A DNA stretch of 64,000 nt from Bacteroidales bacterium (GTDB lineage Bacteria > Bacteroidota > Bacteroidia > Bacteroidales > M50B96). Shown in pieces: positions 29,595 through 52,910 of the stretch. Made by a program: the position numbers and the translations under genes. Each line of letters starts with the position of its first letter. Within the stretch, counting starts at the first letter, position 1. Under the pieces are notes generated by a model. The model did not search any database and was not told the DNA's origin. It saw only the letters and a program-made list of their open reading frames with translations. Location: the NCBI GenBank assembly GCA_021740905.1, contig JAIOYV010000001.1, positions 62,001 to 126,000 on the forward strand, given 5' to 3'.

Positions 29595-29602
29595 TACATT
29601 TG
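29595..29602 (+). promoter_or_regulatory. Predicted -7 element of TIR-like gene
   Basis: TACATTTG matches TAnnTTTG exactly and lies 25 nt before the ATG at 29627. A -33 element is not obvious. It supports independent transcription of the next gene from the dcw operon. Confidence 0.4.
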
Positions 29603-29626
29603 CTTTGTAACATAAATAAAAATAAA

Positions 29627-34445: not shown

Positions 34446-37400
34446 TTATTTAATTACTTGAAATGCCTTTGTTTGGATATTATTTCCCGACTGGACACGG
34501 CAGAAGTAACTGCCCGCTGGTAAAGAAACCAGGTCTACATCAAACCTGTAGGTACCCGATGAAAGGTTTCCTTTTTGCAATACGTCCAATTTAGCACCTA
34601 AACTATTGTATACTGCCACTTCAACATAATCGCCATTGCTTATGCTGAATGAAATGGTACAATTGTCGGTGGCAGGATTTGGATAACATTCAACAGCAAG
34701 GTCGCTTGAAATGAAGCTAACTTTTTCGGCCACACTTATTCCATTCACTTCATAGCTATCGCTACCTTGTTGCCACGATTCAATTGTAACAGGGTTGGAC
34801 AAGCCACTTGCCTTGTTCCATAGTTGCACCTGGAAGGCTTCACCTGACATTAGACCATCCACTTCAGGAGTCAGATCATCGTTTCCCCAAAGGGTAACTA
34901 CGAAGTTTCCGCCCTCATAAGTTCCGGCTCCGACTAATGACCCTGTTTGGGTAAAGACGGCAATTTCATCACCCACTGCAGGATTTGATTCCCATGCCAC
35001 GACCGGGATCGCAAGGATATGATTGTTCCCAGTATTTGTGGCAGAAGGAAAATGAAAGCTTGAATTCATCACCGAATACCCTTTGCTTGCAGGTGCATTG
35101 GCTGGAAACGAATAGGTGAATTGGGCACTTGTCTTTATTTGATAACCTTCGCCCGGCATCATATTGCCAATGGCATTTAAGCCCCAAAGCGGCCAATAAA
35201 CAGTACCATTCCCATTTTTCATTATAATTACTTCGCTAAAGCTTGAGAACAATGCCTGGATATCGGCAGGTGATTGACGAAGATATCCTATCATTCCCCA
35301 ACCTTGCTGAATTGTCAGGATTGTATTTTCCGGCACAACGGCCGTCCCAACGATATCAAGGGTTTGGGCAGATGTTACTTTTATCTGATAACCCATGCCG
35401 ATTGTAAGATCACCAATAGCATTCAGATTGAATGATGGCCAATAAACCACACCATTTCCGTCTTTTACAATTTGTACTTCATTAACAATGCTGCTGAATA
35501 TACTGTCGAGCGATGCTTCATAAGGATCGATATAAGTAGAGAACATACTCCATCCATATACAATATTTAGTGTTTGGACATCAACCGATACGTCAATAAA
35601 TTCGATATCATCCCAATAGAAAATTTCGCCGGCACCCATATTTCCAAAGCCAAAGAATATAGCTACTTTATTATATGTCCATGATAGATTAAGCGCAGGT
35701 GTTGAAGGTTGTTCATTAGAAAGATCAAATTCTATGGTTTCCCAAGCATTGGCAACAGTGGTTGCGCCGAGTGTCTCACAGGAATGACTTCCATCGCTTT
35801 TGTCTTCCACTTTGAATAAAATAGGAATACCAGCAGCTGGTGAATATACCCGCATTTTCATTTTTGTAAGGCTTGAAGTGAAAGGGATTGCATTTGCCAA
35901 TCCATTCGCAATTCCGATAGGTGCTGTACCTGCCCACACTTCTGCATTGACAGTTTTGGTTGTTTTTCCAACAGTGTTAGAAGGATCAACCGGGTCAACG
36001 GCTAATTCGGAATAAGTGCCACCCCAAACTTCGAATGTATAATCTGTAGTTGCTGATTCAAAATCAACAGGAAGATCAATCTCATCCCAAACGAAAGGTA
36101 CAAACATCACATCATCCCAATAATACATAGCACCAGAACCTGCATTTCCAAAGTCGAAGAAAATGCTTGCCATGTCGTAGGTATTCACTAAATTAATTGC
36201 CGGATTCCCTGATGCGTAATCAAACACGAGGGTTTCCCAGGCATTGGCCACTGTGGTAGTAGCAAATGCTTCACTGAATATAGCACTATTGGTATGATCT
36301 TCAACTTTCAATAAAACACTTACTCCTGCAGCTGGAGAATAAACTTTTACACTCATTTTTGTGTCCATTGCTGTGAATGGGATCGCAGTGGCAAAACCAG
36401 CCGGTGTACTCATGGTGGTTCCTGCCCAGGTTTGAGCCCCTGCAGTTTTTGTTGTTACCGCTACATTGTTGGTCCCAACCACTGGATCGGTCCCTAATAC
36501 AGTTGCAGCCCCACCAAAATCGGTTAAGGTGTAATCGACATAAGCTCCTTCGAAATCGACAGGTAAGTCAATTTGTGAATAAACAATTTGTCCTTCTACC
36601 TGCATTACTTCATCGAAATAAAAGAGGGTGTCGTTGTTTGAGGCAAAATCGAAGAAAATTACAATTTTGTTGTACACATTCGACGCTGCACCCGTAAAGT
36701 TGTAGGATAGCTCTACCCATTCGTTAGCGGTTGTTACAGATGCCAATACTTCGGTAAATGCGGTTGCCCCCGACATGTCTTCCAGTTTCATTAAAACATC
36801 GCAAGTAATCGGCGACCATACCTTCATGGTAATTGTATTGTATTGAGAGAAATCGAGTGCGGTAGCGGGAAGTCCGGCAGCATGTGCCCAGGTTTCGCCC
36901 GTACGTTGGAAAGCGGCACAAGTATCGGTAGTGTTCATTCCTGTTGGATCAGGATTAACTACTTTACCTGGCCAGTTTGGCCATCCTTCGAAAGGAACAT
37001 TCTCGTTGTCATCAAAATCGTTGATGATTATGTAGTTGGGTGCCACAATTGGGGTATCAATAAATGTAACATCGTCCCAATAGTAAACCTCACCGGCACC
37101 TACATTTCCAAAACCAAAGAACAATCCAACTTTATCGTAGGTATTGGCTAAGTTTAGGGCGGGTGTACCATTTGACAAATCAAACACTAAAGTTTCCCAG
37201 GCATTGGCTACCGTTGTAGTATCAGTTACCTCGCATGATATTGCACCATTCGATTTGTTTTCTACTTTGCACAAAACAGGTGTACCAGCGGCAGGAGAAT
37301 AAACCCGCACTGCCATTTTTGTATGCAGTGCATCGAAAGGAATCGCATTGGCTAATCCATTGGCATTTCCAACTGCTGCTGTTCCAGCCCATGTCTGAGC

Positions 37401-40400
37401 ATTTACTTCCTTTGTTGTTTTGGCAACCGTGTTTGTTGGATCAACTGGATCGATTGCAAGTTCCGATGCCATTCCCCCCCATACTTCGAATGTATAATCT
37501 GTGGTGCTTGATTCAAAATCAATTGGAAGATCAATTGGATCTAATACGAAAGGTACAAACATTACATCGTCCCAATAATACATAGCTCCAGTGCCTGTAT
37601 TTCCAAAGTCGAAGAAAATGCTGGCCATGTCGTAAGTATTGGCTGTGTTAATAGCTGGGTTCCCCGTCGCATAATCAAACTCGAGGGTTTCCCAGGCATT
37701 GGCCACTGTGGTAGTAGCAAATGCTTCGCTGAATATACCACTATTCGTATGATCTTCAACTTTCAATAAAACACTGACACCTGTAGCCGGAGAATATACT
37801 TTAACACTCATTTTAGTGTCTAAAGTTGTAAACGGAATCGCTGTTGCAAACCCACTTGAAGTGCTCATTGTGGTACCTGCCCAGGTTTGAGCACCCACAC
37901 CTTTTGTGGTAATAGCCACATTATTTGTTGCAGCTACCGGGTCGCTTCCGAGAACCGTTGTGGTTCCACCAAAATCAGTAAGTGTATAATCTGTTGTTGC
38001 CGATTCGAAATCGATAGGCAAATCGATTTGATCCATAACAGCTGGGGCTAACTGAACATCATCAAAATAGAAAGTATCGGTTCCATTAGTGGCAAAATCG
38101 AAAAAGATAATCATATTGTTGTACACTCCCGAAGCGGTTCCTGCAAAATTAAAGGAGAGATTCTCCCATGTATTGGCTGTAGTTACAGTTTGTGAAACTT
38201 CTACCGGAGCCGCCCCATAAGAACTTTCCAGTTTTAATAAAACGGTACAAGTTATCGGTGAATAGATCTTCAGATCAATCCCCTGGTAGGTTGTAAAATC
38301 GATTACATTATTGAGGTTGGAGTAAGTATTTGCCCATTGCTCGCCTCCGCGCGCCCAGCAACCTACGCTATCGCTCACATTTATTCCTGAAGCATCTGGA
38401 TTGGCAACCTTTAGGACTGTATTTGGCCATCCAGAGAATACCTCATTTTCGTTGGTATCGAAATCGGTGAAGATGGTGTAACTTGGCGTTACGACAGAGG
38501 TTGTATCAAATTCAACATCATCCCAATAATAAACCTCACCGTTGCCAGAAGTGCCAAAATTGAAAAAGATGATGGCCTTATCGTACGTATTTGTTAGGTT
38601 GAAAGAACCAGCTGTAGGAGCACTAAAATCGAATGTCAAGGTTTCCCAGGCATTGGCAACAGTTGTAGTGTCTTGTGTCTCGACATTAATACCCGAGTTG
38701 TTTTTATCTTCAAGCTTAAACAATACAGGTGTTCCTATTGCAGGTGAATAAACCTTTACCATCATTTTTGTTTGAGTGGCGGTAAAAGGAACTGCATTAA
38801 GAAACCCTTGTTCTGGAGACCCGGGTGTTGCTAAAGTAGTTCCAGCCCATGTCTCAGAGGCAACTCCTTTTGTAGTTTGAACAACTTGATTTGTTCCACC
38901 GGCAGGATCGGTTACTATAAGTGAAGTCGTTCCCCCAAAGTCGATGAATGAATAATTTACCGTAGTATCATCAAAGTTAACGGGTAAGTCCATTTGTGTT
39001 AATGGGGGTGGCGGTGGTACTATGGTTCCACAACTTGCTGCAAAAGGAACCACAATATCCGTTTGGCTTAACTGCCAGTTTCCACCAAAGGAGACCTTGC
39101 TCCATAAAACATTCAAGGTAACATCGGTGGGTGGTGTAACCCATGTCAGTGTCCTGGAAATTTTACCGGATACCGATGTGTTCTCGGCCGAAATAGCGGC
39201 ACCACTACCATTATTAACGATTAATAAATCCACAGGATCGGAATCAGCTGATTCAATTTCAACCATCATAGAAGTTGCATCAACATTTGTGATAGTTAAA
39301 TTGATGGCCGAAGCTACTTCTGCGGGAATATTAAAATGTGTAGTATAGGTTACACAATAATCCGATACGCTGTCTACAGGAAGCACTATGGTTGAATCAG
39401 GGGGTAGAAATTGAACATCGTCCCAATAGTAAGTTTTTGCTCCGGCAGTGGCACCATCGGTTCCAAAGTTAAAAAAGATGGATGCTTTGTTGTAGGTGTT
39501 GGCCAGGTTTAGGACAGGTGCAGAAACTGGAATACTAAAATCGAATACCAAAGTGTCCCACGCATTGGCCATTGTGGTTGTGTCTTCACTTTCGACATAT
39601 ATGCCTCCATTGGCAGCATCCTCTACCTTTAAACGAACAGGGATTCCTGCATCGGGGGAATAAACCATCACCTGCATCTTGGAAGCATTCGCAGCGAATG
39701 GGATCGCATTGGCAAAACCAGAAGGAGTACTCATGGTTGTACCTGCCCAGACTTGGGCTGTTGCATCTTTGGTAGAAATAGCTACCGTATTACTTGCATT
39801 GGCAGGGTCAGCTCCTAAAATAGTTGTGTTGCCTCCAAAGTCTGTCACTGTGTAATTAACAGTTGCCGATTCGAAATCGATAGGCAAGTCGATCTGTGAA
39901 AGCGTAATCACTGGTTCTACCAATTCCAAATCATCGAAATAAAAAGTATCGGTACCAAAAGTGGCAAAATCAAAGAAAATGATGATCTTATCGTAAACAC
40001 CTGTTGTGGCAAACGAAAAGTCAAAGGTCAATTGTTCCCATGCATTTGCTGCTACATTCTTAGTCACTTCAACAGGCAATGCTCCTCCTGAATCTTCAAG
40101 TTTAAATAAAACGGCACAGGCTATCGGCGAATATACCTTCAACTCGAAAACGGAATTCACCGAAAAATCAAGATCAGTTGCCAGGTTCGAATAACAATGC
40201 GCCCATTGTTCTCCCCCTCGGGCCCACATTCCCACGCTGTCGCTGGTATTAATACCCGATTGCGATGGATTAATTACCTGGGTTGGAAAATTTGGCCAAC
40301 CCTCGAAGGTAGCTGTTTCAACTCCCTCGAAATTGGTAAACACCTGAGACGAGAGCCATCCCATACTTGCTACCAAAATCATCATTGTAAAAATCGCTCT

Positions 40401-40406
40401 TTTCAT
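34446..40406 (-). CDS. Giant T9SS surface protein, three A-B-B module triads
   Basis: 1986 aa. Signal peptide (about 1-21). Modules: A1 23-163, B1 166-334, a unique domain 335-465 (CVTYTTHFNIPAEVAS...), B2 468-633, A2 644-787, B3 790-951, B4 955-1116, A3 1124-1270, B5 1275-1437, B6 1440-1604. Then two tandem copies of a unit with GNGxVYWPxxxLNAIG (about 1611-1685 and 1700-1765), a region (about 1780-1895) containing GDEIAVFTQTGSLVGAGTY, and a type-A sorting domain (1904-1986). The A-B-B order is the same as in the 592-aa neighbour. Modules of the same type are highly similar, e.g. B3 and B5. Likely a cell-surface glucan-binding protein or adhesin; no catalytic domain seen. Confidence 0.75.
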   Translation of the reverse strand: MKRAIFTMMILVASMGWLSSQVFTNFEGVETATFEGWPNFPTQVINPSQSGINTSDSVGMWARGGEQWAHCYSNLATDLDFSVNSVFELKVYSPIACAVLFKLEDSGGALPVEVTKNVAANAWEQLTFDFSFATTGVYDKIIIFFDFATFGTDTFYFDDLELVEPVITLSQIDLPIDFESATVNYTVTDFGGNTTILGADPANASNTVAISTKDATAQVWAGTTMSTPSGFANAIPFAANASKMQVMVYSPDAGIPVRLKVEDAANGGIYVESEDTTTMANAWDTLVFDFSIPVSAPVLNLANTYNKASIFFNFGTDGATAGAKTYYWDDVQFLPPDSTIVLPVDSVSDYCVTYTTHFNIPAEVASAINLTITNVDATSMMVEIESADSDPVDLLIVNNGSGAAISAENTSVSGKISRTLTWVTPPTDVTLNVLWSKVSFGGNWQLSQTDIVVPFAASCGTIVPPPPPLTQMDLPVNFDDTTVNYSFIDFGGTTSLIVTDPAGGTNQVVQTTKGVASETWAGTTLATPGSPEQGFLNAVPFTATQTKMMVKVYSPAIGTPVLFKLEDKNNSGINVETQDTTTVANAWETLTFDFSAPTAGSFNLTNTYDKAIIFFNFGTSGNGEVYYWDDVEFDTTSVVTPSYTIFTDFDTNENEVFSGWPNTVLKVANPDASGINVSDSVGCWARGGEQWANTYSNLNNVIDFTTYQGIDLKIYSPITCTVLLKLESSYGAAPVEVSQTVTTANTWENLSFNFAGTASGVYNNMIIFFDFATNGTDTFYFDDVQLAPAVMDQIDLPIDFESATTDYTLTDFGGTTTVLGSDPVAATNNVAITTKGVGAQTWAGTTMSTSSGFATAIPFTTLDTKMSVKVYSPATGVSVLLKVEDHTNSGIFSEAFATTTVANAWETLEFDYATGNPAINTANTYDMASIFFDFGNTGTGAMYYWDDVMFVPFVLDPIDLPIDFESSTTDYTFEVWGGMASELAIDPVDPTNTVAKTTKEVNAQTWAGTAAVGNANGLANAIPFDALHTKMAVRVYSPAAGTPVLCKVENKSNGAISCEVTDTTTVANAWETLVFDLSNGTPALNLANTYDKVGLFFGFGNVGAGEVYYWDDVTFIDTPIVAPNYIIINDFDDNENVPFEGWPNWPGKVVNPDPTGMNTTDTCAAFQRTGETWAHAAGLPATALDFSQYNTITMKVWSPITCDVLMKLEDMSGATAFTEVLASVTTANEWVELSYNFTGAASNVYNKIVIFFDFASNNDTLFYFDEVMQVEGQIVYSQIDLPVDFEGAYVDYTLTDFGGAATVLGTDPVVGTNNVAVTTKTAGAQTWAGTTMSTPAGFATAIPFTAMDTKMSVKVYSPAAGVSVLLKVEDHTNSAIFSEAFATTTVANAWETLVFDYASGNPAINLVNTYDMASIFFDFGNAGSGAMYYWDDVMFVPFVWDEIDLPVDFESATTDYTFEVWGGTYSELAVDPVDPSNTVGKTTKTVNAEVWAGTAPIGIANGLANAIPFTSSLTKMKMRVYSPAAGIPILFKVEDKSDGSHSCETLGATTVANAWETIEFDLSNEQPSTPALNLSWTYNKVAIFFGFGNMGAGEIFYWDDIEFIDVSVDVQTLNIVYGWSMFSTYIDPYEASLDSIFSSIVNEVQIVKDGNGVVYWPSFNLNAIGDLTIGMGYQIKVTSAQTLDIVGTAVVPENTILTIQQGWGMIGYLRQSPADIQALFSSFSEVIIMKNGNGTVYWPLWGLNAIGNMMPGEGYQIKTSAQFTYSFPANAPASKGYSVMNSSFHFPSATNTGNNHILAIPVVAWESNPAVGDEIAVFTQTGSLVGAGTYEGGNFVVTLWGNDDLTPEVDGLMSGEAFQVQLWNKASGLSNPVTIESWQQGSDSYEVNGISVAEKVSFISSDLAVECYPNPATDNCTISFSISNGDYVEVAVYNSLGAKLDVLQKGNLSSGTYRFDVDLVSLPAGSYFCRVQSGNNIQTKAFQVIK

Positions 40407-40457: not shown

Positions 40458-42236
40458 TTATCTTGTGCTTTTTATCACTTTATATCTTGATACTTCATTT
40501 CCTGAATGTATCTCAACTATGTAAACTCCGGGTGAAAGATGTCCCAGGCTCATCTTCCCAAAGTTTGAAACATTGTTGAACACCTGGATTTTGCTTCCAT
40601 TCAAATTGAAAATATTCACTTGCACCAGATTTGAAATTTCCTGGGTCGCGATTGTCAGTTCATCTACAAAAGGATTGGGAAATATTTCGACAGTATGTCC
40701 ATTTTCGGTTTCATTGATAGTGGTGACTAAGGAATGTACCATTTCGATGGGCTGTATCCAAAATGTTCCGGTATTAGCTGTAACAAAATTTCCGTAATTG
40801 ATATAAATTCTTATTTCTGAAATTTGATCGATCAGAAAAGCCCCGACAGGCGTATCTCCAAAATTGTGGTAATAGGTATGGTAGTTCCCATCACTATTAA
40901 TAGCTTCGAGAATGAAAAAGTTGCCCTGATTGCTTGCTCCGTTCACATCGTAGAGGTCTACCCGCAAATTTGCCGGCGCATTGCCATTCTCCGTTTTTAG
41001 CCTGAGCTTCATCTTGGGAGTGGCCCAAAAATTTACGGGCGAGTCAAATTCATAATAAATGTAGGCATGGTTTGGGGGGACCGAAATGGAATAATCCACT
41101 GCCAATTCGTTGGTGCCAGTTAATGTGACAGAATTGCCAGAAGTTTGATGCACCTGCCAAATAAGCTGGTTTTGCAAATCTATATGGGGAACATTGAAAA
41201 CGCTGTTGCTCAATGCTGACACGTAAAAGGGATCGGAGATCTTTACAAGTGTACCACCAGAGGCTGTTACTGTTATCGAATCGCTGGTAGAACCCCAAAT
41301 TGCCGTCATTGTGCAACTATTGGCTCCACTAATAATTACAGCATCGGTTGGCAGGTCCCAGAGATAGGTGAGTTCGGGGAAATACAAACTCGAGTAAGTT
41401 ACCGTGTCGCCTTGTACAACTACTGAAGGTCCGTCAATTTCAGGTTGTGGAAAATCGTCCTGATACACCCGGACATAATCTATTTTCATGGTCTGTGGAA
41501 AAACAGTAGAGGCATTCGGATAACCTGGCCAATTGCCTCCCACAGCCAGGTTTAGGATGATGAAGAAATCGTTGTGAAATTCGCTCAGGCCAGAAGGTGT
41601 AATATCAGCTGTGTAATAAAGGATGCCATCCATATAGGCACGGATTTCCTGGTTGTCCCATTCGGCAGAAAATACATGGTAAGCGTTGGCAAAAATCCCT
41701 ACTGGTAGCGTATAGCTGTCGCCATAACTGGCATGGTTGCCGTTGTTGTCCCAATGGATGGTAGAATGACAGACATTGTCGTTGCCAGCCCCACCTATCA
41801 TTTCCATTATATCAATTTCGCCACAGCCCGGCCATCCTGTTGAATTGAAATTTTCGCCCAGCATCCAAAAGGCTGGCCATATACCCTGTCCATAAGGCAA
41901 TAGAATACGGGCTTCTATTTTTCCATATTGAAATTCAAATTTGTCCTGGGTGGTAATTCGTGCCGAAGTGTATGGGTTGCTGCCAATGGTTTGTTGTTTG
42001 GCAGTGATGGTAAGTACCCCGTTGGCAACCTCGGCATTCGCAAGGTTGTTGGTGTAATATTGCGATTCATTGTTACCCCAGCCACTACCGCCAATCTCCA
42101 TATTCCATTTGGCAGGATCGGGTAGCCCGTTGTAATTGAACTCATCGGCCCAAATCGTAAACTGATTCTGCGCACTGGCCGAAAAAATACTGATCAACAA
42201 TAAAAAAATAAGATGTGTAATATTCCTTCTAGTCAT
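40458..42236 (-). CDS. GH16 endo-beta-1,3-glucanase (laminarinase-like), T9SS-secreted
   Basis: 592 aa: signal peptide (1-22), GH16 catalytic domain (about 25-260) with nucleophile and acid/base in GEIDIMEM (E140, D142, E145), a PKD/Ig-like domain (about 265-345), a beta-sandwich domain resembling a CBM (about 350-500) and a T9SS sorting domain (about 510-592; VEIFPNPFVDELTI). The EIDIMEM form with the extra Met is typical of laminarinases. It should act outside the cell on beta-1,3-glucan. The start overlaps the upstream MFS gene by 8 nt. Confidence 0.9.
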   Translation of the reverse strand: MTRRNITHLIFLLLISIFSASAQNQFTIWADEFNYNGLPDPAKWNMEIGGSGWGNNESQYYTNNLANAEVANGVLTITAKQQTIGSNPYTSARITTQDKFEFQYGKIEARILLPYGQGIWPAFWMLGENFNSTGWPGCGEIDIMEMIGGAGNDNVCHSTIHWDNNGNHASYGDSYTLPVGIFANAYHVFSAEWDNQEIRAYMDGILYYTADITPSGLSEFHNDFFIILNLAVGGNWPGYPNASTVFPQTMKIDYVRVYQDDFPQPEIDGPSVVVQGDTVTYSSLYFPELTYLWDLPTDAVIISGANSCTMTAIWGSTSDSITVTASGGTLVKISDPFYVSALSNSVFNVPHIDLQNQLIWQVHQTSGNSVTLTGTNELAVDYSISVPPNHAYIYYEFDSPVNFWATPKMKLRLKTENGNAPANLRVDLYDVNGASNQGNFFILEAINSDGNYHTYYHNFGDTPVGAFLIDQISEIRIYINYGNFVTANTGTFWIQPIEMVHSLVTTINETENGHTVEIFPNPFVDELTIATQEISNLVQVNIFNLNGSKIQVFNNVSNFGKMSLGHLSPGVYIVEIHSGNEVSRYKVIKSTR

Positions 42237-43941
42237 TGGTAGTCTCCTCTTTTGATCGTCTACGGTCCAATTCTGTTTGCATCACCAGGCAAGTTTTGTG
42301 GTCGATGGTGTAGAAAAACAGAAGGATTGCACACGATGCGTATAAAAAGCCAGGTATCACTGAAACCATTAATTTTATGCCCATGATGGCCGTTTCGCTT
42401 TGTACTATATTGGGTTCGAATTTGAACAGGAAGAGCAACCAGCCAGCCAATGCACCGCCAATTCCCCAACCTGCTTTCTGGGCAAAGGTTGCTGCCGAAA
42501 ATACCAGGCCAGTTGATCGGCGGCCTGTTTTCCATTCCGAATAATCAGCCGTATCAGCCAACATGGTCCATAAAAGGACAACTGCCGGGGCATAAGACAT
42601 TTTAGCCAGGATGTTGAAAATGTATATCAGGGTGTAATCGCCTTTTCCAGGTATGTACAATAGGGCAAAAAAGATACCCGACAAAATGGTACTCGCCATA
42701 AACACATTCCGGTTGCCAAAGCGTTTGGCCAATGGCTTGGCGGCTGGAAGGGCCACAATCAAAGCAATGCTACTTACGATATTGAATAACTGAACGTTTT
42801 CTTCAGTCCCAATATAGTATTTGAAATAGTAGGCAATCGACAAATTCTGCAAGGCAAACATGATAAACGAAATAATGCCAACCAGTGCCAGGATAATCCA
42901 TGGCTTGTTGGTCATTAAATTCTTAAAATCTTCCTTGATCGAATTCTGCTGGGCTTTTGGCGGATGGACACGCTCTTTGGTTGTAAAGAAAGTGATCAGG
43001 AAGAAAATAACACTGAGGATGCCTAAAACCACCAAAGTGTATTTATACCCTTTTGCCTTGTCTACAGTGTTGTCATTTGCCCGTACATTGATGTAGGTTT
43101 CCGTCGCGCCTTGTTTTATATAATGCACATCTTCGTTTGCATCGGGATAAGGTATCATTCGCGACACTTTTGCCTTGGCCATAATCTGAGCTGAATCGAA
43201 GGCTGCAATTTGATGAAGTGAATCGCCCCTCGTCCCATTGGCAGGCTCAACAACCACATACACGGTGCCTGTGGCCGATTTCGATTTCTTATCTTCGATG
43301 GAATATACCAGGGTGTCGATCCCCACAAAACCGGGATTCGGATTGTACTTGATACTGTCGTTATCTACCACCAGGGCAGTACCCCCTTTGAAGTTTTCTG
43401 AGACTATTTTCGTGGTGAAATCGCCTTTTCCAAAAAACAGGGCCATGGATAGCGCAAAACCGGTTACTATTAATTGACCTGAAAAGGCACTGACAAAACG
43501 ATAGGTGTTGATCCCGGCTCTTTCGTTTGAGTCGGAAGTCATTACGGCCATTAATGAGGAATAGGGTAGATTTATGGCGGTGTAGGCTGTCATTAAAAGA
43601 AAATAGGTTGTGGCGGCCCAAAGCACTTTCCCAGTTTGACCCAGGTCGGGAGTGGTGAAAGTGAGTACCGCTAAAATGGCATAGGGAAAGGCTGTAAATA
43701 AAATAAATGGCCGGAATTTACCCCAGCGGGATGTTGTCCTATCGGAGATAATCCCCATCAGGGGGTCGGTCACCATGTCCCATATCCGGGCAATCAGCAT
43801 GATGGTCCCGGCAGCCGCCGCCGAAATCCCGAAGGTGTCGGTATAAAAAATGAGGATCCAGAAACCAACCATATCCCAAACAAAGTGAGATGCGGTGTCG
43901 CCTAAGCCGTATCCAATTTTCTCTTTTATTGATAGTTTCAT
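42229..43941 (-). CDS. MFS sugar:cation symporter (GPH type) with periplasmic Ig/cadherin-like insert
   Basis: 570 aa, about 120 longer than usual for MelB-like GPH transporters. N-terminal TM block 1-172 (KIGYGLGDTASHFVWDM; DPLMGIISDRTTSRWGKFRPF; INLPYSSLMAVMTSDSNERA) is normal. Between TM5 and TM6, in a loop that should face the periplasm, residues about 174-297 are extra. They include IKYNPNPGFVGIDTLVYSIEDK and TGTVYVVVEP, the signature of bacterial Ig/cadherin-like modules normally seen in adhesins. TM6-TM12 resume at about 300. Probably imports glucose or laminari-oligosaccharides. Gene context: directly before the GH16 gene (8-nt overlap). Confidence 0.88.
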   Translation of the reverse strand: MKLSIKEKIGYGLGDTASHFVWDMVGFWILIFYTDTFGISAAAAGTIMLIARIWDMVTDPLMGIISDRTTSRWGKFRPFILFTAFPYAILAVLTFTTPDLGQTGKVLWAATTYFLLMTAYTAINLPYSSLMAVMTSDSNERAGINTYRFVSAFSGQLIVTGFALSMALFFGKGDFTTKIVSENFKGGTALVVDNDSIKYNPNPGFVGIDTLVYSIEDKKSKSATGTVYVVVEPANGTRGDSLHQIAAFDSAQIMAKAKVSRMIPYPDANEDVHYIKQGATETYINVRANDNTVDKAKGYKYTLVVLGILSVIFFLITFFTTKERVHPPKAQQNSIKEDFKNLMTNKPWIILALVGIISFIMFALQNLSIAYYFKYYIGTEENVQLFNIVSSIALIVALPAAKPLAKRFGNRNVFMASTILSGIFFALLYIPGKGDYTLIYIFNILAKMSYAPAVVLLWTMLADTADYSEWKTGRRSTGLVFSAATFAQKAGWGIGGALAGWLLFLFKFEPNIVQSETAIMGIKLMVSVIPGFLYASCAILLFFYTIDHKTCLVMQTELDRRRSKEETTND

Positions 43942-44219: not shown

Positions 44220-46028
44220 TTATTCTCGTGAGTAATATATATCCTTAATAAAAATCTTCTTCCCACCCAGGCTCGACTCCCCTCTCAGAAAAAGGAGACT
44301 GGTCACATCGGTTAAATCCGCACCCTTGTTCAGGATGGAAACGGGTATGCTATAATTTGTCCATTCTTCGTTGACAGCGAAGCTTTTGCCGGGGCTAAAT
44401 GTCACAAAATTGTTTACCTGGTTTCCTTTGTTCCACAATCCGGTTTGAAAGCCCAGGGAGAAATCAGAAGATATGTTTCCTTTGATTGCGAAATTTAATA
44501 ACCCGTTGGCAAATTCAGTCATGTTTTCACCTACTCCACTGGATGGTAATTCGAGGGCGCAACCCCACCAATCGTCTGTGCCGTTTGATATTTCGACAAT
44601 ACCCTCCACCGACATTTTTATGCTGCAAGTGCCTTCCCACGAATTTAGTATTATCCCTGCACTCGGGTAAGTGGCGTTATTGCTTTCGTCAGGGACAATC
44701 GTTTGGCACAACACAACATAAGTATCTTCTATTACTTTGTCCCCGGGTTGGCGATTGTTGTTTATCATTGAAATCTCCATTACCCCGGCAGCTTTCTTCG
44801 AGGGTGGGGACAGGACTTCAGCAAGCAAAGCTTCCGTATCCCCATTGTACGTTTTGGAAAGAGTTACGCCATTTCGGGTCAATCCTTCAAAGACACCATA
44901 ATCAAAGCTGTCCCACAAAGCGAATTTTACTTCCCCTTGAAGACTAATCAAGCCAAAATGGTTTTCCGAACCCAAAGGGTTGCCCTGGTCTTTCCAATGC
45001 TCATCAAAAGCCTCGAAATAAAAACAAGACATTCCCGCCTGGTTGGTCCAGTCGCGCATGTAGTCATAAAATAATTTTTGCTTGTACTCATCGGCGGCAT
45101 GGGAACCGTTTGCCCCATATAATGATGCATCGACCGATGCCCAGCCGGTTTCGCCAATGTGAATAGGTTTATTTGGCTCAACACTATGAATATAATCGGC
45201 AGCGCTTTGATATTGCGTTTTGGCATAGTCTATTGCCCTAATCATGGCTGCATCCACTTTTTCAATCGTGTTCAAACTGTCTTCTGCTTCAGGTACATTC
45301 CAGAAATCGGAGTTGTAGTGGCTTTCATGAAACGGATAGGTGTGTAGAGAAACATAGTCCACTGCTTTTATGAGGGCAGCCAGATCATCGGTCCGATAGG
45401 CATTATCGCCACCCCAAGCTGCAAAATTGTCTGAGCTGGTTATCCAAACATTTTCCGGCAACTTGTCTTTCGATTTCAAATCCTGCAAATATTCAACCCA
45501 TTTTAAAATGATTGCGGGAGAGACAAAATACCTGGTTGCCCAATGCACCATTGCTTCATTTCCTACGGCAATGATTTTTACAATATCGGGGTAAGCCATG
45601 GCCATTTCAACGGCAGCATTAATTTCTGCCGTGTTGTTTTCGACACTGCCAGCATTGTGGTTTGGGGTTTCAGTCCACGCCCCTTCACAGTCGATCCATA
45701 CTCCCAACATGACATACATTTCGAAATCGCGATCTTCTTCCTTCAACTCTTGAATGGCTTTCAGAAGATTTCCGGCCTGGGCAAATTGTTGAGAATTGTA
45801 GGTCCGCAAAAGCTTTACGCCCATAGCTTCCAGAATTTTCATGTCTTCTTTCAATTCCTCAACAGTGGGTACAACATCACGGGTCGTTCCCCGGTATCCT
45901 CCATACGAAAAAGCCAGATATTCAGGATTTCCGAGAATTTCCGCAGCCGTTTTGTCATTCGATGGCGAACATCCAACTATTAAAATAGAAAGAACGAATA
46001 AATATAAATACCAAAATTTTAGTTTCAT
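44220..46028 (-). CDS. GH17 beta-glucanase lipoprotein
   Basis: 602 aa. Lipobox ending at C20 (SILIVGC) predicts a lipid-anchored protein in the cell envelope. GH17 barrel about residues 35-400 with acid/base in AVGNEAMVHW (E158) and nucleophile in IGETGW (E293); VSLHTYPF is also family-typical. The C-terminal third (about 405-602) looks like an extra beta-sandwich, perhaps glycan binding. Last gene of the GH149-GH17-GH17-MFS-GH17 operon, 17 nt after the MFS gene. Confidence 0.88.
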   Translation of the reverse strand: MKLKFWYLYLFVLSILIVGCSPSNDKTAAEILGNPEYLAFSYGGYRGTTRDVVPTVEELKEDMKILEAMGVKLLRTYNSQQFAQAGNLLKAIQELKEEDRDFEMYVMLGVWIDCEGAWTETPNHNAGSVENNTAEINAAVEMAMAYPDIVKIIAVGNEAMVHWATRYFVSPAIILKWVEYLQDLKSKDKLPENVWITSSDNFAAWGGDNAYRTDDLAALIKAVDYVSLHTYPFHESHYNSDFWNVPEAEDSLNTIEKVDAAMIRAIDYAKTQYQSAADYIHSVEPNKPIHIGETGWASVDASLYGANGSHAADEYKQKLFYDYMRDWTNQAGMSCFYFEAFDEHWKDQGNPLGSENHFGLISLQGEVKFALWDSFDYGVFEGLTRNGVTLSKTYNGDTEALLAEVLSPPSKKAAGVMEISMINNNRQPGDKVIEDTYVVLCQTIVPDESNNATYPSAGIILNSWEGTCSIKMSVEGIVEISNGTDDWWGCALELPSSGVGENMTEFANGLLNFAIKGNISSDFSLGFQTGLWNKGNQVNNFVTFSPGKSFAVNEEWTNYSIPVSILNKGADLTDVTSLLFLRGESSLGGKKIFIKDIYYSRE

Positions 46029-46045: not shown

Positions 46046-47476
46046 TTATAATTCTCCTCTTCGTTTTACTAATTCTACTTTTATCTCATGCACTCTTTCT
46101 TCATCAAGGCTATATTTCCACATCACCCAAATGGCAATTGCCGCAGTTATAACCGGAATAGAGATATCTGCAATACGTAGATTCGTCATTGTGTCAGCTG
46201 CCTGAATTGCAGCATTTTGATCAAAGCCAACCAATTTTAATACTAAGCCACCAAGGACTAAAGCGATGGCCTGGCCTAATTTTACCATCCACCAATAAAT
46301 GGCCCCAAAAGTTCCTTCTTTACGGGGCATACCATTCTTCAATTCATCTAAATCACAAACATCTGCAGTCATGCTCATCATTAGTGTGAATAAACCACCA
46401 ATACCAAAAGACATTAGAGGAACCGGCATAAAAATCAACCAGGGATTTCCTGGATTAAATCCCCACCATTTTAGCGCATAACCTACTATTGAAATAGCTG
46501 TTGAAATGATAAAGGCCCTTCGTTTCCCCCATCTTGTGGCCATCGCTGTAATTACCGGAATAACTAGAAATGCAGTTGCCATAGCACTTATCGTTGAAAA
46601 CCAGGCTGGCCATGTTCCAGTAATTCCATAGTCGCCATTAAACATGTAAAAAACGATAATGAAATAGCTAAACGAAGCGACCATTTGAAACCCGTTAAAG
46701 ACTAAAAATGTGGCTCCACAAAGTTTCATAAAAGGTTTGTTTTTTGAAATTTGGGCAATTCCTTTAAGCAAATCTTTTAAATTAGTGAACAAACTACTAA
46801 ATGTGATTTTTGCCCTGTTTTCCATTTTGCCCGGATCAATTCCCTTACAAAATATTGCGGGTAAAATTCCCAGCGATAAACATATTGCCCCAACGAAAAT
46901 TGAAAGTTGGCGAACACCTATTACTTGTGTTTCAAATAAATCAGGGTCAGCAATGAGAACCCAAAACCAGGGCACAATCATCCATGCAATTTGACCGACT
47001 ACTTGGGAAAATCCCATTAAGCGAGTGCGCTCGGAATAGTCAGAAGTCATTTCGTAACCTAACCCTATTAAGGGTGTTGAAAAGATTGTATTTCCAATTA
47101 GATAGACCAGCGACAAGATCAGGAAATACCAAAAATTATACATCTGAGTGCGCTCGGGATCAAGTTGCCATAAAACGGCAAACAATACACCACTTAAAAT
47201 AGCACCGGCAAAAATATACGGTCTTCTGCGCCCATATCTCGATTTGGTATTGTCCGATATATACCCCATTATGGGGTCGGTAATAGCATCAAAGATTCGC
47301 GGAAGCCCACCCAACAAACCTGCTAGAAAAGGATCCATCCCAAAGGCTGTCACTAAAAAGAACATAAAAATGCCAAGTGCACCGGGTAATAAATTATTCA
47401 CTAAGTTCCCTGCACCAAAAGCCATTTTCTGTCCGATGGGTACAACATCTTTTGCAGCTGTTTTATAATGTGCCAT
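46046..47476 (-). CDS. MFS sugar:cation symporter (GPH type)
   Basis: 476 aa, 12 predicted TM helices, standard length. Hallmarks: QKMAFGAGNLVNNLLPGALG, DAITDPIMGYISDNTKSRYGRRRPYIF and GLGYEMTSDYSERTRLMGFSQVVGQ. No periplasmic insert, unlike the second MFS gene of the locus. Probably imports glucose or short beta-glucan products into the cytoplasm, where the adjacent GH17 and phosphorylase genes would act. Overlaps the upstream GH17 gene by 14 nt. Confidence 0.9.
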   Translation of the reverse strand: MAHYKTAAKDVVPIGQKMAFGAGNLVNNLLPGALGIFMFFLVTAFGMDPFLAGLLGGLPRIFDAITDPIMGYISDNTKSRYGRRRPYIFAGAILSGVLFAVLWQLDPERTQMYNFWYFLILSLVYLIGNTIFSTPLIGLGYEMTSDYSERTRLMGFSQVVGQIAWMIVPWFWVLIADPDLFETQVIGVRQLSIFVGAICLSLGILPAIFCKGIDPGKMENRAKITFSSLFTNLKDLLKGIAQISKNKPFMKLCGATFLVFNGFQMVASFSYFIIVFYMFNGDYGITGTWPAWFSTISAMATAFLVIPVITAMATRWGKRRAFIISTAISIVGYALKWWGFNPGNPWLIFMPVPLMSFGIGGLFTLMMSMTADVCDLDELKNGMPRKEGTFGAIYWWMVKLGQAIALVLGGLVLKLVGFDQNAAIQAADTMTNLRIADISIPVITAAIAIWVMWKYSLDEERVHEIKVELVKRRGEL

Positions 47477-48500
47477 TTGAATTTTCTTTTGTGTCTCTTA
47501 AAATTCTCTTTCCTTTTGAAATTTGATTTTTGGAATTTGTATTTTGGGATTTCTCCCCTTGCATCACCTTCTTTGGTTTTCTGTCCACTGTAAATAAGCC
47601 CCAGTGTTTTTCAGGTTCAAGAGCCTCGGGCGATCCTTTCCAGGGTTCGTCGAAAGCTTCGAATACAAAAGTGAGAATCCCTTCCTTCTTGCTCCAGGCT
47701 GCTAAATCGTTGAAATATATTTGTTGAAACTCTTCGCTTACATTTTGAGGGTCGATCCCACGACCGTTCGAATTGGTAGCCCAACCCGCCTCGGTTATCA
47801 CAACCGGCTTATTGGGGTATAGCACTGCAACTCCATAGAAATTTTGCTTGGTGTATTCCAGTGCATCGTGGATATTTTTGTATTCCCATACCGGGTAGGT
47901 GTGTATGGAAATGAAATCAACTTCATTGGCCAGGTCATGCAATTTGCTGTTCCAGGGGACATAGTTTTCGCAAAAGGTTATAGGCTGTTGGGTTTCCCTT
48001 TTAATTAACCTTACATACTCAATTACTTTTTCAACCGGAACAAAATGATCGGTCCAATCGACCGTGGCCTCGTTTCCGGCTGAGAGTGAAAAGATAATTT
48101 CGGGGTATTTGTTGGCCAGATAAATCAAACTCATTATTTCTTCGAGGTTCCGGGTTTTATTCCGGTTTAATTCTTCTTCAGAATAAATGGTACCCCATGG
48201 ACATCCGAAGTTGTTCATCTCGGCTGCAATATAAGCACCCAACATCACCCTAAAATTGAGCTTTTCTTTTTGGATCACCTGTAGAACAATCTCCGCATGA
48301 TGGCTACAATCGTACAGGCGTAAATATTTCCAACGATCCTGAAGGATTAACAGGTCCTCCTTTACCTCCTCATAAGAAGGGTAAATTTCAGAACCCGGAC
48401 TTTGTCCATCGCGATAACCTGAATAACAAATCCCACTGCCGGGGTTTATGCCCAGTTCAGCAAATACGTTTATATGTTTCCTCTCGGGATTATTTTCCAT
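47463..48500 (-). CDS. GH17-family glycosidase without signal peptide
   Basis: 345 aa. GH17 barrel with SAGNEATVDW (acid/base E144) and ITEAGW (nucleophile E237), plus ISIHTYPVW. The N-terminus (MENNPERKHINVFAELGINPGSG) has no signal peptide or lipobox, so the enzyme should be cytoplasmic. The last 25 residues are polar and low complexity. Overlaps its neighbours by 11 and 14 nt, so it is translationally coupled. Could be an endo-1,3-glucanase or transglycosylase on imported oligosaccharides. Confidence 0.85.
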   Translation of the reverse strand: MENNPERKHINVFAELGINPGSGICYSGYRDGQSPGSEIYPSYEEVKEDLLILQDRWKYLRLYDCSHHAEIVLQVIQKEKLNFRVMLGAYIAAEMNNFGCPWGTIYSEEELNRNKTRNLEEIMSLIYLANKYPEIIFSLSAGNEATVDWTDHFVPVEKVIEYVRLIKRETQQPITFCENYVPWNSKLHDLANEVDFISIHTYPVWEYKNIHDALEYTKQNFYGVAVLYPNKPVVITEAGWATNSNGRGIDPQNVSEEFQQIYFNDLAAWSKKEGILTFVFEAFDEPWKGSPEALEPEKHWGLFTVDRKPKKVMQGEKSQNTNSKNQISKGKRILRDTKENSNGTL

Positions 48501-49380
48501 ATTTTAATTTTCCGTCTTTGTCCCATAATCCCCAAAAGGCACCAACATCGCCTTCATCGCTTGTTTTCCAGGCCTCATCAAACGATGAGAAATAAAATAT
48601 GTCGATATTATCCTCTTCGGACCATAGTTGGGCATTAATGAAATATTTTATGGCGTTCTCTGTACTTGGTTCTGCACCATAGAATTCTTCCCCAACATTT
48701 GGCCATCCGGTTTCGGATATGATTACCTTTTTCCCGTTGGCAATTTGGAGAGCACGACGGTACATATCTTTCATGTATAGAAATGAATGTTCCAGGCTGC
48801 AACCTTCCCAGAAAGGATAACAATTGGCAAGTATTACATCGCAGGCCTCAGTTATTTTAGGATGATTCTCAAATTGGTAGTAGGCATCGACATAGCCCAC
48901 GGGCATATTGGGCGCCTCTTTTTTCACCCTAAGGATATAGTCCAAAAGTTCCTCCTCGCTCAAGTCGCCACGGTACAAAACCTCGTTGCCCACAGCCAAA
49001 ATATCGGCATAGCCCTCCTTTGCGATTTGAATGGCATTGGCGATTTCCTTTTCGTTAATCCTTTTATTCACTCCGAGCCAGGCACCCACCATAGTTTTGA
49101 TCCCATATTCATGAGCCACCCGCGGGATAAGCTCATTGCCATCGGTACACGAAAACGATCGGATCCACTTTGTGTAGGGTTTGATAAGCTCCATCCGGTT
49201 TCTTATCTGCGCTTCACTAATTTGGGAACCGGGTGCCTGTTCTTCGAGATAGGGGCTAAAACAAAGCCCCCGCATCCCGTTTTGCAATACTTTGGTAAAC
49301 ATGGTCTGTAGTTCTTCCCTGCTTTTATTGGCGAAGTTTATTCCCGCCAACGACATAATATTTTCTGATCTTCTTGACAT
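48490..49380 (-). CDS. GH17-family glycosidase without signal peptide, shorter paralogue
   Basis: 296 aa, essentially one GH17 domain: FSPYLEEQAPGSQ near the N-terminus, AVGNEVLYRGD (E133 acid/base), ANCYPFWEG and ISETGWPNVGEEF (E223 nucleophile). No signal peptide, so probably cytoplasmic. It resembles the next gene in architecture but not closely in sequence. 17 nt after the GH149-like gene. Confidence 0.85.
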   Translation of the reverse strand: MSRRSENIMSLAGINFANKSREELQTMFTKVLQNGMRGLCFSPYLEEQAPGSQISEAQIRNRMELIKPYTKWIRSFSCTDGNELIPRVAHEYGIKTMVGAWLGVNKRINEKEIANAIQIAKEGYADILAVGNEVLYRGDLSEEELLDYILRVKKEAPNMPVGYVDAYYQFENHPKITEACDVILANCYPFWEGCSLEHSFLYMKDMYRRALQIANGKKVIISETGWPNVGEEFYGAEPSTENAIKYFINAQLWSEEDNIDIFYFSSFDEAWKTSDEGDVGAFWGLWDKDGKLKYGK

Positions 49381-49397: not shown

Positions 49398-52300
49398 CTA
49401 TTGAATAATTGAGACTTCGATGAGTGCGATTTCGTTTGTGCGATTAAAAACCAGGCTGCTTATTTTCTTTTCCAGCTTGTTGCCTGCGATTTCATCCCGG
49501 CGATTGTCGGTGTACACCACCACAATTTTTTCCTGATCGGCAAGCGTGTAAACTACCGGCACCTGGCAAAGGGTAAAGCCAAGCTGTTTCTTTTGTAAGG
49601 AAAGCTGTTGAATCTTTCCATCCAGGGAAACGTACTCAAACACCTGCTCTTTCAGTAAAAATTCCTTTTTGTTGATGAGGGTGAGATCGAACAGGATTTC
49701 GCCCTTTATGATCCGCACCCCAATTTCTCCCATGCGCGAAATCACATCTTCTTTCACCTGACCAGTCATGCCGGGCTGCTTGGCACCAGCGTTGCCGGGC
49801 GTGTGGGAATAGGCATCGGTGGGGAATGCACCGTACAATTTGGGTGATTTATAAAGGCCAATCCCTGCCTTAATCTCATAAAAATGATCTTTGAGTTTTC
49901 CAATAATCAGAGGGTCGGCATCCTCGTCCACAGCCTTGAAGAAACATTCTTCGGTGGCCAACAATAGTTTCCCAACCATGTGCCAGTAAATACTGCCCAG
50001 TCCTTCGTACCCATAGAAAGTACCCGATCTGCCAGTGAAGGATTGATGGTCGAACATTTCTTCGTAAATATCCAAAACCTTTGCTTTTTCCTCTTGCACA
50101 AGGCTGCCATAGTTTTTCGAATCGAGCTGGTCGAGGGCCGTTTCAAGCACATTGGCATTTCGGAACGATCCATCGAAATGACAATGCCCCGAATTGTCAG
50201 CACTCAGAATGGAAGAATTGTTATCGGCTATCAGCTTCTTCAATAGTTTCGATCCTTCAACCTTATCGGTTGGGATATTGTTTCTCTCGTTGAAGCGAGG
50301 CAATTGCCTGTCGGGATAAAGCAAATAACTGTATTGATCCTGCCTGAACAAGGGGCTCCATTTCAAGTGGTCGAGCACATCGAGGCTTTCTTTTGCTGAA
50401 AGCAAGCCCGAACTCAGTACGGCAACCTGGCCTTCGAGCATCACATACAAGTGCCGGATCGAAATTCCATTCCACTTAAACGAAATTAAGTTATATGCTT
50501 GATAAAGCCCATCTTCGCCTTTGTTTACACGGATAGACTGATCGATATACTCCAAGGCAACTTTTGTAAAAGCGACCAGTTCCCTTGCGTTTACTGTCGA
50601 TTTCTTTCCAGAAAATGAATTTTTATAGATTGAATTTCGATAGTTCGACCCAGCCTCTCCCAAAACATCGGCAAAGTAGCGGCGTTTCTCGTCCGAAAAC
50701 CCCATTTCCAAAAGGATGGTATTATCTGCAAATAGCTTATAAATAGCGTCGAAAAGAGTTTTTACTTCTTCCGAAATAGAGATGGTTTTTACCTCGGTGC
50801 TGCTGAATTTATCAATCCAAAACTGCAAAGCCCTGCGCAGATAATAAAGCGTGACCATCGAAACCCCATTGCCCACGAGGGCATTGTTTGCATCGTTCCA
50901 TTCGGGTCGCTGGGTGTTTAACCAAATACCTGCCTCGGGAATAAAATTGCTCAATTTAGCCAGCAATGAAACCAGCACCTTTTCGGTGAGATTCACATGT
51001 AGTGTTTCATCGCCCTTTCTTACCAAACGACCATCGGCTCCAATTTCTTTAACCAATTCTTTAATCCGATTATTCAGATCACCATCAAAATCGATGGTTG
51101 CCTGTGGATTTTTAACGATTTCCTGGTACGACTTAATCCGGTAAGGAACATTAGCATACGCAAAAATTTCTTTCGTCAGCAACTTGTCCAGCTTTCCGGG
51201 ATGATAGGCTTCTGAAAGTTCGAGCAACTTTTGCAAATAGATTACCTGGTGATCGCCCCAATAGCCGATATAGGCCCAGGGATCATCTGGTTCGGGACTT
51301 TCCCAATCAATGCCATCGCGTTTGATCCGGTAGGGGTTGTACCCATCGGGCGTAGAGGCGTTCACAAACTTGCTGATGATATTCTCGATGTATCCGGGAT
51401 AGGACAAACTCAGGGCTTCCCAGTTCTGAAAGATGTCGCGCCAGTTTCCCTGATAGTCTGATTTAGGGGAACCATCTTCATTTTTAGTTTCGATGGAAAA
51501 TTGATTCCACGGACGGCTGGGATCGCCATGGCGACGGCTAAACGTAAGGGGCAAATATTCGTAACAGATCCGTATAAAATCGGGGTTGCCGGTCTTATAT
51601 GCAAGGTCTATCAGGTCTTTGTCCGAAATTTCCGCAGGCAAAGAAATCAGCGTGGCGGCAAGTTCGAGGCTGATATTCTTGTTGGTTTGCTCCACAAATT
51701 TCCTGAAATCATTCCCTTCAACAATGTAATTATTGAGATAAATCCCCCCGCGCATTACATTGAAAAGGGTATTGGTGAAATGCCTTGCCGAACAAAGTTC
51801 TTCGTGACTGCTTTGTAAACCATCGGCCCCGGAAACAATTTTAATCAGGTTGGTAGTTCCTTTTTTGATGTCAGCGTTTACCAATTTGGTATGGTTCACC
51901 TGCCCTTTTAGGAATTTGTTCAGATTGGCAACATCGGTGGTGTTTTGGTTGATCTCGGCCACAAATAGCCAATCTCTATCCTGGTTTGGTTCAAGGTTTA
52001 ATTCGGCATGAACAAAATAAGCTCCCCTGGCAGCCCTCACATCCGTTTCGGTTTGCACGGGCAATCCACATTTATAATCATCCAATTGATTGGCCGAAAT
52101 AAGGATTTTTGAATCCTTCAAACCCTGCGACCATACTGTAGTGGCATTCAACGATTCGCTCGGCTCGGCCCGGTCGACCGGTATGGAACTCAGCATAAAA
52201 AGGCCAAGACCCGTTTTCTCGATCAGTTCGTTCTTTTTGTAGCCGTCGAGGAGGTTGCTGTATTCATTTTGAAATTCATAAAAAACGCCATGTGGGAGTA

Positions 52301-52850
52301 TGTTTTGCAAGCCATCGAGTATTTCAACTTTCAGTGATTTGCTGCTTCTATTGGTTATTACCGATTTCTTGACAAAGCCATAAAGCTCGCTGCTGTACCA
52401 TCCGTACTTGAAACTGATCTCCAGGTCGTCGTTTATTTCTTCGAAGATGAGTTTGTTGCCATAGATGGATTTATATAGGTTCCGCTCAATTTTGTAGATC
52501 GAACTATGCTCTTTCGAGAAAGGTTCCCAAAGGTAGCTTCGTCGTGCTTCGCTTACGAAGAGGATGGTTTTGCTGCCCGTGCGATCGTAATAATCATGAA
52601 TCTTATCATCGGTATAGTAAGGAAATAGCGCATTGTTCCGGTCCTTTCGCCCTGCTGAAAGCGACCCGTTGCTCGAAATAAAATTCCAGTGGTCGGAATC
52701 GCTGACTATGGTCATCAGAAAATCTGGCATCTGGTGATAATTCGTGATTTTGTAAAACTTCTCACCTTCCATTTCGACAAAACCCCCTTTGACCTTTGCC
52801 GGGGTGCAGTCTAAAAATGTGTCGCCTAAGTATATTTTTTTCCTTTTCAT
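49398..52850 (-). CDS. GH149-like beta-1,3-oligoglucan phosphorylase
   Basis: About 1150 aa from ATG 52850 (MKRKKIYLGDTF), chosen over a start 27 nt upstream. A large (alpha/alpha)6-type phosphorylase: N-terminal beta domain, linker, helical barrel with the PEWNDANNALVGNG block (around residue 650) carrying the candidate catalytic Asp, and a C-terminal beta region. Size and context suit GH149 (beta-1,3-glucan phosphorylases, about 1100 aa); GH94 or GH161 membership is less likely but not excluded. It would convert laminari-oligosaccharides plus phosphate to glucose-1-phosphate. No signal peptide; cytoplasmic. First gene of a tight five-gene operon. Confidence 0.78.
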   Translation of the reverse strand: MKRKKIYLGDTFLDCTPAKVKGGFVEMEGEKFYKITNYHQMPDFLMTIVSDSDHWNFISSNGSLSAGRKDRNNALFPYYTDDKIHDYYDRTGSKTILFVSEARRSYLWEPFSKEHSSIYKIERNLYKSIYGNKLIFEEINDDLEISFKYGWYSSELYGFVKKSVITNRSSKSLKVEILDGLQNILPHGVFYEFQNEYSNLLDGYKKNELIEKTGLGLFMLSSIPVDRAEPSESLNATTVWSQGLKDSKILISANQLDDYKCGLPVQTETDVRAARGAYFVHAELNLEPNQDRDWLFVAEINQNTTDVANLNKFLKGQVNHTKLVNADIKKGTTNLIKIVSGADGLQSSHEELCSARHFTNTLFNVMRGGIYLNNYIVEGNDFRKFVEQTNKNISLELAATLISLPAEISDKDLIDLAYKTGNPDFIRICYEYLPLTFSRRHGDPSRPWNQFSIETKNEDGSPKSDYQGNWRDIFQNWEALSLSYPGYIENIISKFVNASTPDGYNPYRIKRDGIDWESPEPDDPWAYIGYWGDHQVIYLQKLLELSEAYHPGKLDKLLTKEIFAYANVPYRIKSYQEIVKNPQATIDFDGDLNNRIKELVKEIGADGRLVRKGDETLHVNLTEKVLVSLLAKLSNFIPEAGIWLNTQRPEWNDANNALVGNGVSMVTLYYLRRALQFWIDKFSSTEVKTISISEEVKTLFDAIYKLFADNTILLEMGFSDEKRRYFADVLGEAGSNYRNSIYKNSFSGKKSTVNARELVAFTKVALEYIDQSIRVNKGEDGLYQAYNLISFKWNGISIRHLYVMLEGQVAVLSSGLLSAKESLDVLDHLKWSPLFRQDQYSYLLYPDRQLPRFNERNNIPTDKVEGSKLLKKLIADNNSSILSADNSGHCHFDGSFRNANVLETALDQLDSKNYGSLVQEEKAKVLDIYEEMFDHQSFTGRSGTFYGYEGLGSIYWHMVGKLLLATEECFFKAVDEDADPLIIGKLKDHFYEIKAGIGLYKSPKLYGAFPTDAYSHTPGNAGAKQPGMTGQVKEDVISRMGEIGVRIIKGEILFDLTLINKKEFLLKEQVFEYVSLDGKIQQLSLQKKQLGFTLCQVPVVYTLADQEKIVVVYTDNRRDEIAGNKLEKKISSLVFNRTNEIALIEVSIIQ

Positions 52851-52910
52851 TATTCGTTCTTTAATCTCAAAGTTCAATCTCTACGTTCCAATCAATCTGC
52901 TATGATTGTT

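Follow-up and report, generated by a model that had tools for sequence, protein, structure and literature searches.

A circularly permuted bacterial Ig-like domain, as read from sequence and model, in the TM5-TM6 loop of a predicted beta-1,3-glucan oligosaccharide importer

The window analyzed here is a stretch of 64,000 nucleotides from a Bacteroidales bacterium (GCA_021740905.1, contig JAIOYV010000001.1, positions 62,001 to 126,000). It holds a gene for a sugar symporter of the MFS type with extra residues between two transmembrane helices, which raises the question of what these residues form and what they might do for an importer set among beta-glucan enzymes. The reading we favor, at only just short of an even chance, is that the gene encodes an importer of beta-1,3-gluco-(laminari-)oligosaccharides whose insert is a complete permuted Big_9 domain, serving as an optional periplasmic docking or clustering module.

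The open reading frame lies at positions 42229-43941 on the minus strand and encodes 570 residues. Its protein matches the Pfam model MFS_2 (PF13347) with E=4.8e-101 and the TIGR00792 gph model with 363.4 bits, against a cut-off of 231.35, the latter match being split between TM5 and TM6, at the insert. MelB is the nearest solved relative by sequence alignment. The full-length AF2 model resembles MelB in its MFS fold and shows beta strands within the insert; its best match is MelBSt 9old (Z 40.2, 436 aligned residues, rmsd 3.4). TM1-TM5 are formed by residues 1-170 (43432..43941, minus strand), which show AF2 helices and belong to a one-to-one alignment with MelB that extends to about residue 174, and TM6-TM12 by residues 295-570 (42229..43059, minus strand), likewise modeled by AF2, with the gph match picking up again at residue 293. 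The importer has in common with the MelB/GPH family (TIGR00792, PF13347) the 12-TM MFS core and the cation-site Asp pair, the TM2 pair of MelB (D55, D59) being aligned at positions 55 and 59 of the query, RIWDMVTDPLMG. It differs from MelB in its TM5-TM6 Ig insert, which MelB lacks, and in the sugar site, where D19 and D124 of MelB are replaced by H19 and N124; given these replacements, a different sugar is expected. By homology, the gene encodes a GPH sugar:cation symporter of the MelB type, its transport activity being predicted, which agrees with the family and the coordinates given in the first-pass annotation.

That annotation had placed about 120 extra residues, with the pattern of an adhesin-type Ig module, in a periplasmic loop between TM5 and TM6. 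The TM5-TM6 stretch has 181 residues in the window protein versus 61 in 68 orthologs, so the insert is exactly 120 residues long (residues 175-294, 43060..43419, minus strand). The Pfam bacterial Ig domain Big_9 (PF17963) matches residues 174-229 with E=6.1e-08 and 33.9 bits, above the gathering cut-off of 23.6, which bears out the Ig assignment, and homology to MelB suggests that the loop with its insert lies on the periplasmic side, as had been proposed. Structure prediction, named in the annotation as a check, gave beta strands in the insert, with disorder in the linker region described below. A chance match to Big_9 was ruled out, as the score exceeds the curated cut-off and the match is common to orthologs. 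An assembly artefact was also ruled out, because independent isolates of Labilibacter, Marinilabilia and Carboxylicivirga carry the same insert.

In native order, the Big_9 match spans just profile positions 33-88 of 89. This rules out a plain linear Ig domain, since native order leaves the opening third of the profile unmatched. The missing third was found downstream, at about residues 264-294. Placing this A-B piece before residues 175-237 raises the Big_9 score from 34.7 bits (profile 42-88) to 42.6 bits (6-88), and the inserts of the divergent relatives L108 and L041, re-ordered likewise, reach 38.5 and 36.5 bits at profile 4-88. With hhalign, Big_9 columns 3-30 are covered by the A-B piece alone (P 6.7e-5) and columns 3-90 of 92 by the insert family after re-ordering. 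When A-B pieces from 8 orthologs were scored on a profile built locally from 122 full Big_9 domains, only 1-3 of 1000 shuffles per ortholog were not outscored by the real piece; the 8 orthologs are related and do not amount to 8 independent tests.

From these matches and the model, we read the insert as one complete Big_9 domain with a circular permutation whose break falls between strands B and C. The C-to-G part comes first (residues 175-232, 43246..43419), followed by a flexible linker of about 31 residues that bridges the original C and N termini of the domain (residues 233-263, 43153..43245), and then, out of order, by the A-B part (residues 264-294, 43060..43152), all on the minus strand. 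AF2 strands of the C-G part are found at 175-183, 187-193, 196-201, 207-217 and 222-232; pLDDT is below 50 at 236-270, and two further strands, 271-276 and 282-285, fall at the A and B positions. The A-B strands would pack against the C-G sheet. A model of the insert by itself was mediocre (pLDDT 70), and its fold search returned only weak hits (Z 3.5-5) among solved Ig/cadherin-type domains, whose alignments lie mostly within model residues 1-62 and do not display the permuted part. Judging by its profile matches, the insert is a permuted relative of Big_9 rather than a standard copy. This layout was unexpected, and had gone unnoticed in the first-pass annotation.

Selection was estimated from ortholog pairs with measurable dS. 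Several other pairs, including the window copy versus Labilibacter, had saturated dS. Where dS was measurable, the core has a dN/dS of 0.02-0.03, both Ig halves lie at 0.05-0.18, and the linker, with few sites, gives erratic values from 0.05 to about 1.1. These values, which come from pairs other than the window copy, indicate purifying selection on both Ig halves and relaxation in the linker; the insert evolves faster than the transporter core. This bears on whether a permutation exists at all, as the insert could also be an Ig domain reduced to strands C-G, with an unrelated tail behind it. The linear Pfam match, limited to positions 33-88, would fit such a truncation, and the pairing of A-B with the sheet rests on prediction. 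However, the tail matches the missing columns 3-30, outscores shuffles in 8/8 orthologs tested, is under purifying selection and is predicted as strands, and the same permuted logic recurs in an unrelated three-repeat insert, presented further below. We thus consider the truncation very improbable, and retain the permuted domain.

A search of genome contigs found the insert in 11/79 close orthologous loci, all in Bacteroidota (including L103, which is cut by a contig end), and absent in 68/79. In a tree of the core, with the insert left out, nine carriers including the window gene form one strongly supported group, which spans several genera, and L108 and L041 form another, so that presence and absence of the insert require two changes. 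Given that the break point and motifs are shared, the sequences favor a single gain followed by losses, or else a transfer of the insert, over separate gains in the two groups. Since 68/79 orthologs lack the insert, many of them in the same GH149/GH17 beta-1,3-glucan neighborhood, it is, by its distribution, an optional accessory. The first-pass annotation had called the insert specific, because the neighboring MFS gene at 46046 lacks it. That comparison stands, as the gph match of this neighbor is in one piece; the broader claim is only partly right, as most close orthologs also lack the insert, while other GPH importers have other inserts at the same loop. When the insert profile was searched against 295 genomes of the class, no polytopic transporter with Big_9 was seen among 12 loci inspected; most of the remaining matches sit in long open frames, and the window's own genome also holds Big_9 in such frames.

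Of 149 genomes searched within the order, eight hold a protein whose gph match is interrupted at the TM5-TM6 loop. Two Bacteroidales genomes, G007 and G488, carry at this loop a three-repeat Ig/cadherin-type insert that differs from that of the window. The G007 importer has 761 residues, and its insert of about 290 residues starts and ends mid-repeat; when re-joined, the two halves score 36.1 bits against a profile of its two complete repeats, with 0/1000 shuffles as high. The G488 importer has 781 residues and is 39% identical to it along its length. On our reading of the alignment, the G007 break falls later in the domain than the window break, which argues for separate origins of the two inserts. 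The G007 importer adjoins two GH130 phosphorylases and an epimerase, and that of G488 adjoins GH94; no such insert is present in a G414 importer that likewise adjoins GH130 and shares 73-81% core identity with the G007 protein.

Further extra segments were seen in GPH importers. An unrelated insert of 85 residues, predicted to be of beta type by sequence pattern only, occurs in five further genomes and in Ancylomarina (L048 4858-6462; L159, L160, L162, L164 and L165); carriers whose neighborhood was checked adjoin GH94 phosphorylases, and comparison of this insert with Big_9 found no relation. In L161 (G378:C88), the TM5-TM6 loop is lengthened by about 50 residues that look helical. In the window's own genome, a GPH-type paralog (L004, contig C49, a 693-residue frame) has a long, apparently helical insert in the apparent TM11-TM12 loop, the pseudo-symmetric counterpart of TM5-TM6, and GPH frames of 600-709 residues like L004 occur in G027, G048, G050, G368, G382 and G429.

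From the sequences, related importers appear to have gained modules of Ig type or of other kinds at the TM5-TM6 loop on several occasions. A phosphorylase neighbor is present at 8/8 TM5-TM6 insert loci versus 18/39 insert-free loci (Fisher p 0.006); this association is not relied on, because 5/8 loci belong to one family and the window gene's insert-free orthologs have the same neighbor. A more speculative and somewhat doubtful generalization is that, in GPH oligosaccharide importers of Bacteroidota, the TM5-TM6 hairpin has repeatedly taken up out-of-register Ig cassettes from tandem-repeat arrays. The first and last half-domains of a cassette would pair at the membrane, and importers that are coupled to phosphorylases in the cytoplasm would in this way receive docking modules on their periplasmic side.

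The window gene belongs to a beta-1,3-glucan locus on the minus strand. Downstream, a GH16 gene with a T9SS tail (40458..42236, by the ORF list and Pfam) overlaps the transporter stop with its start. Upstream are a GH17-like lipoprotein with a weak CBM30 match in Pfam (44220..46028), which is a conserved neighbor in many orthologous loci; the second GPH-type MFS, without insert (46046..47476, MFS_2 and gph models); two GH17 genes identified by Pfam, neither with an apparent signal peptide (47463..48500 and 48490..49380); and a GH149 beta-1,3-oligoglucan phosphorylase (49398..52877; 6hq6, 1255 bits, nearly full length). A GH3 is also present. Clusters of GH149 with GH16, cytoplasmic GH17 and an inner-membrane pfam13347 MFS have been described (PMC5827456), and the window locus has the same gene set; the available text of that study makes no mention of an insert in the MFS. 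Among the genes scanned in 32599-63970 on the minus strand, none matched a SusC/SusD pair, which leaves outer-membrane uptake for the locus unexplained. The GH149/GH17/second-MFS neighborhood is conserved around many orthologs. Given that these include insert-free ones, the substrate is probably a beta-1,3-gluco-oligosaccharide with or without the insert.

Under the favored reading, the cation-coupled symporter would import periplasmic beta-1,3-gluco-oligosaccharides for the cytoplasmic GH149 phosphorylase and GH17 enzymes. The natural ends of an Ig domain would lie at opposite poles, and a break at a hairpin loop would bring both new ends side by side at one pole, suiting the close-set ends of TM5 and TM6, with the linker (or further repeats) spanning the length of the domain and rejoining the old ends. 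Facing the periplasm, the module would dock or cluster a protein partner, for instance a glucan hydrolase lipoprotein kept near the pore. A suggestive hint is that a GH16 with a lipoprotein-like signal lies directly upstream of the transporter in six insert loci (L035, L036, L039, L040, L042 and L043), all of one clade. Against docking, the upstream gene in the window is the GH17-like lipoprotein rather than this GH16, the insert is dispensable, as most orthologs in the same neighborhood lack it, and the clade with the insert is so narrow that it affords no independent test of association. On balance, we take docking or clustering to be the likeliest role of the insert, at somewhat less than an even chance.

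The same dispensability would fit a tolerated decoration of little function, that is, an out-of-register piece of a tandem-Ig array in a permissive loop, kept just by the need to fold. The 68/79 insert-free orthologs, the G414 near-ortholog of the three-repeat form, the several unrelated insert kinds at this loop and the faster evolution of the insert all point this way. Yet the insert has been retained across a strongly supported clade of several genera and both halves are under purifying selection, for which the need to fold may account in part, so we hold decoration to be unlikely, though with an appreciable chance. That the insert is instead a carbohydrate-binding module, capturing laminari-oligosaccharides near the pore, would be in keeping with a locus rich in beta-glucan enzymes and with the ability of Ig-like sandwiches to act as carbohydrate binders. 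However, the window insert has no Trp, and a conserved aromatic patch was not found beyond Big_9 core residues and single Tyr/Phe positions. Pfam assigns the insert to Big_9, a structural or adhesin-type module, and to no CBM family, and, together with the lack of Trp, this makes sugar binding less likely than docking. Moreover, a different Ig-type insert is found on importers beside GH130 and GH94, which suggests no tie to one sugar. We regard sugar binding as improbable. Finally, the module could tune the transporter, either by contacting other periplasmic loops and changing gating or by pairing transporters through Ig-Ig contacts. The insert does sit in an N-domain hairpin, and self-association is common among Ig/cadherin-type modules. 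Nevertheless, the Ig-like domains inserted in the animal peptide transporters PepT1 and PepT2 have minimal impact on transport according to PMC4597091, and tuning appears quite improbable.

These animal transporters are also the closest known design, at a different loop. Mammalian PepT1 and PepT2 (SLC15) have an ectodomain of Ig-like folds within the MFS core, for which docking to trypsin has been proposed, and domains so inserted have been termed highly unusual (PMC4597091). Like the window importer, judged by its Ig profile and its loop position by MelB homology, both transporters are nutrient symporters with an Ig-like fold in an extracytoplasmic loop of the MFS core, which other members of their family lack. 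PepT1 and PepT2, however, belong to a different MFS family, have two Ig-like domains at TM9-TM10 versus one at TM5-TM6, and have no permutation described in the available text of that paper. The window importer is not a member of this type, yet may work alike. On the sequence side, the insert belongs to the same family as the Big_9/tandem-95 Ig repeats (PF17963, NF012211) of bacterial surface proteins, where the domains are whole and linear; in the window, a single permuted domain sits in a polytopic membrane protein. The first-pass annotation knew of no described transporter of this layout. PepT1 and PepT2 run counter to this as regards an Ig-like domain in an extracellular MFS loop (PMC4597091); as regards bacteria the statement held, nothing relevant on a bacterial MFS with an Ig insert being found in the literature searched, outside which most subscription journals fall. 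The window importer is apparently an undescribed bacterial variant of a known idea, the placing of an Ig-like domain in an MFS loop outside the cytoplasm, here in a permuted layout.

A bacterial Ig-loop importer offers a testable parallel to the Ig modules of the animal peptide transporters, and near-orthologs with or without the insert permit a clean deletion or transplant test of the module's role. The permutation also points to a simple way of fitting an Ig domain, with its ends at opposite poles, into a tight helical hairpin, which bears on the origin of domain insertions and on engineering them.

Two further genes of the window were noted. Adjoining the glucan genes, 34446-40406 on the minus strand encodes a secreted repeat protein of 1986 residues, in which the T9SS tail is the only confident Pfam match. 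On the plus strand, 29600-30718 encodes a CAP12/Pycsar-type TIR effector domain (PF10137, E=1.2e-31), and is probably an anti-phage defense gene.
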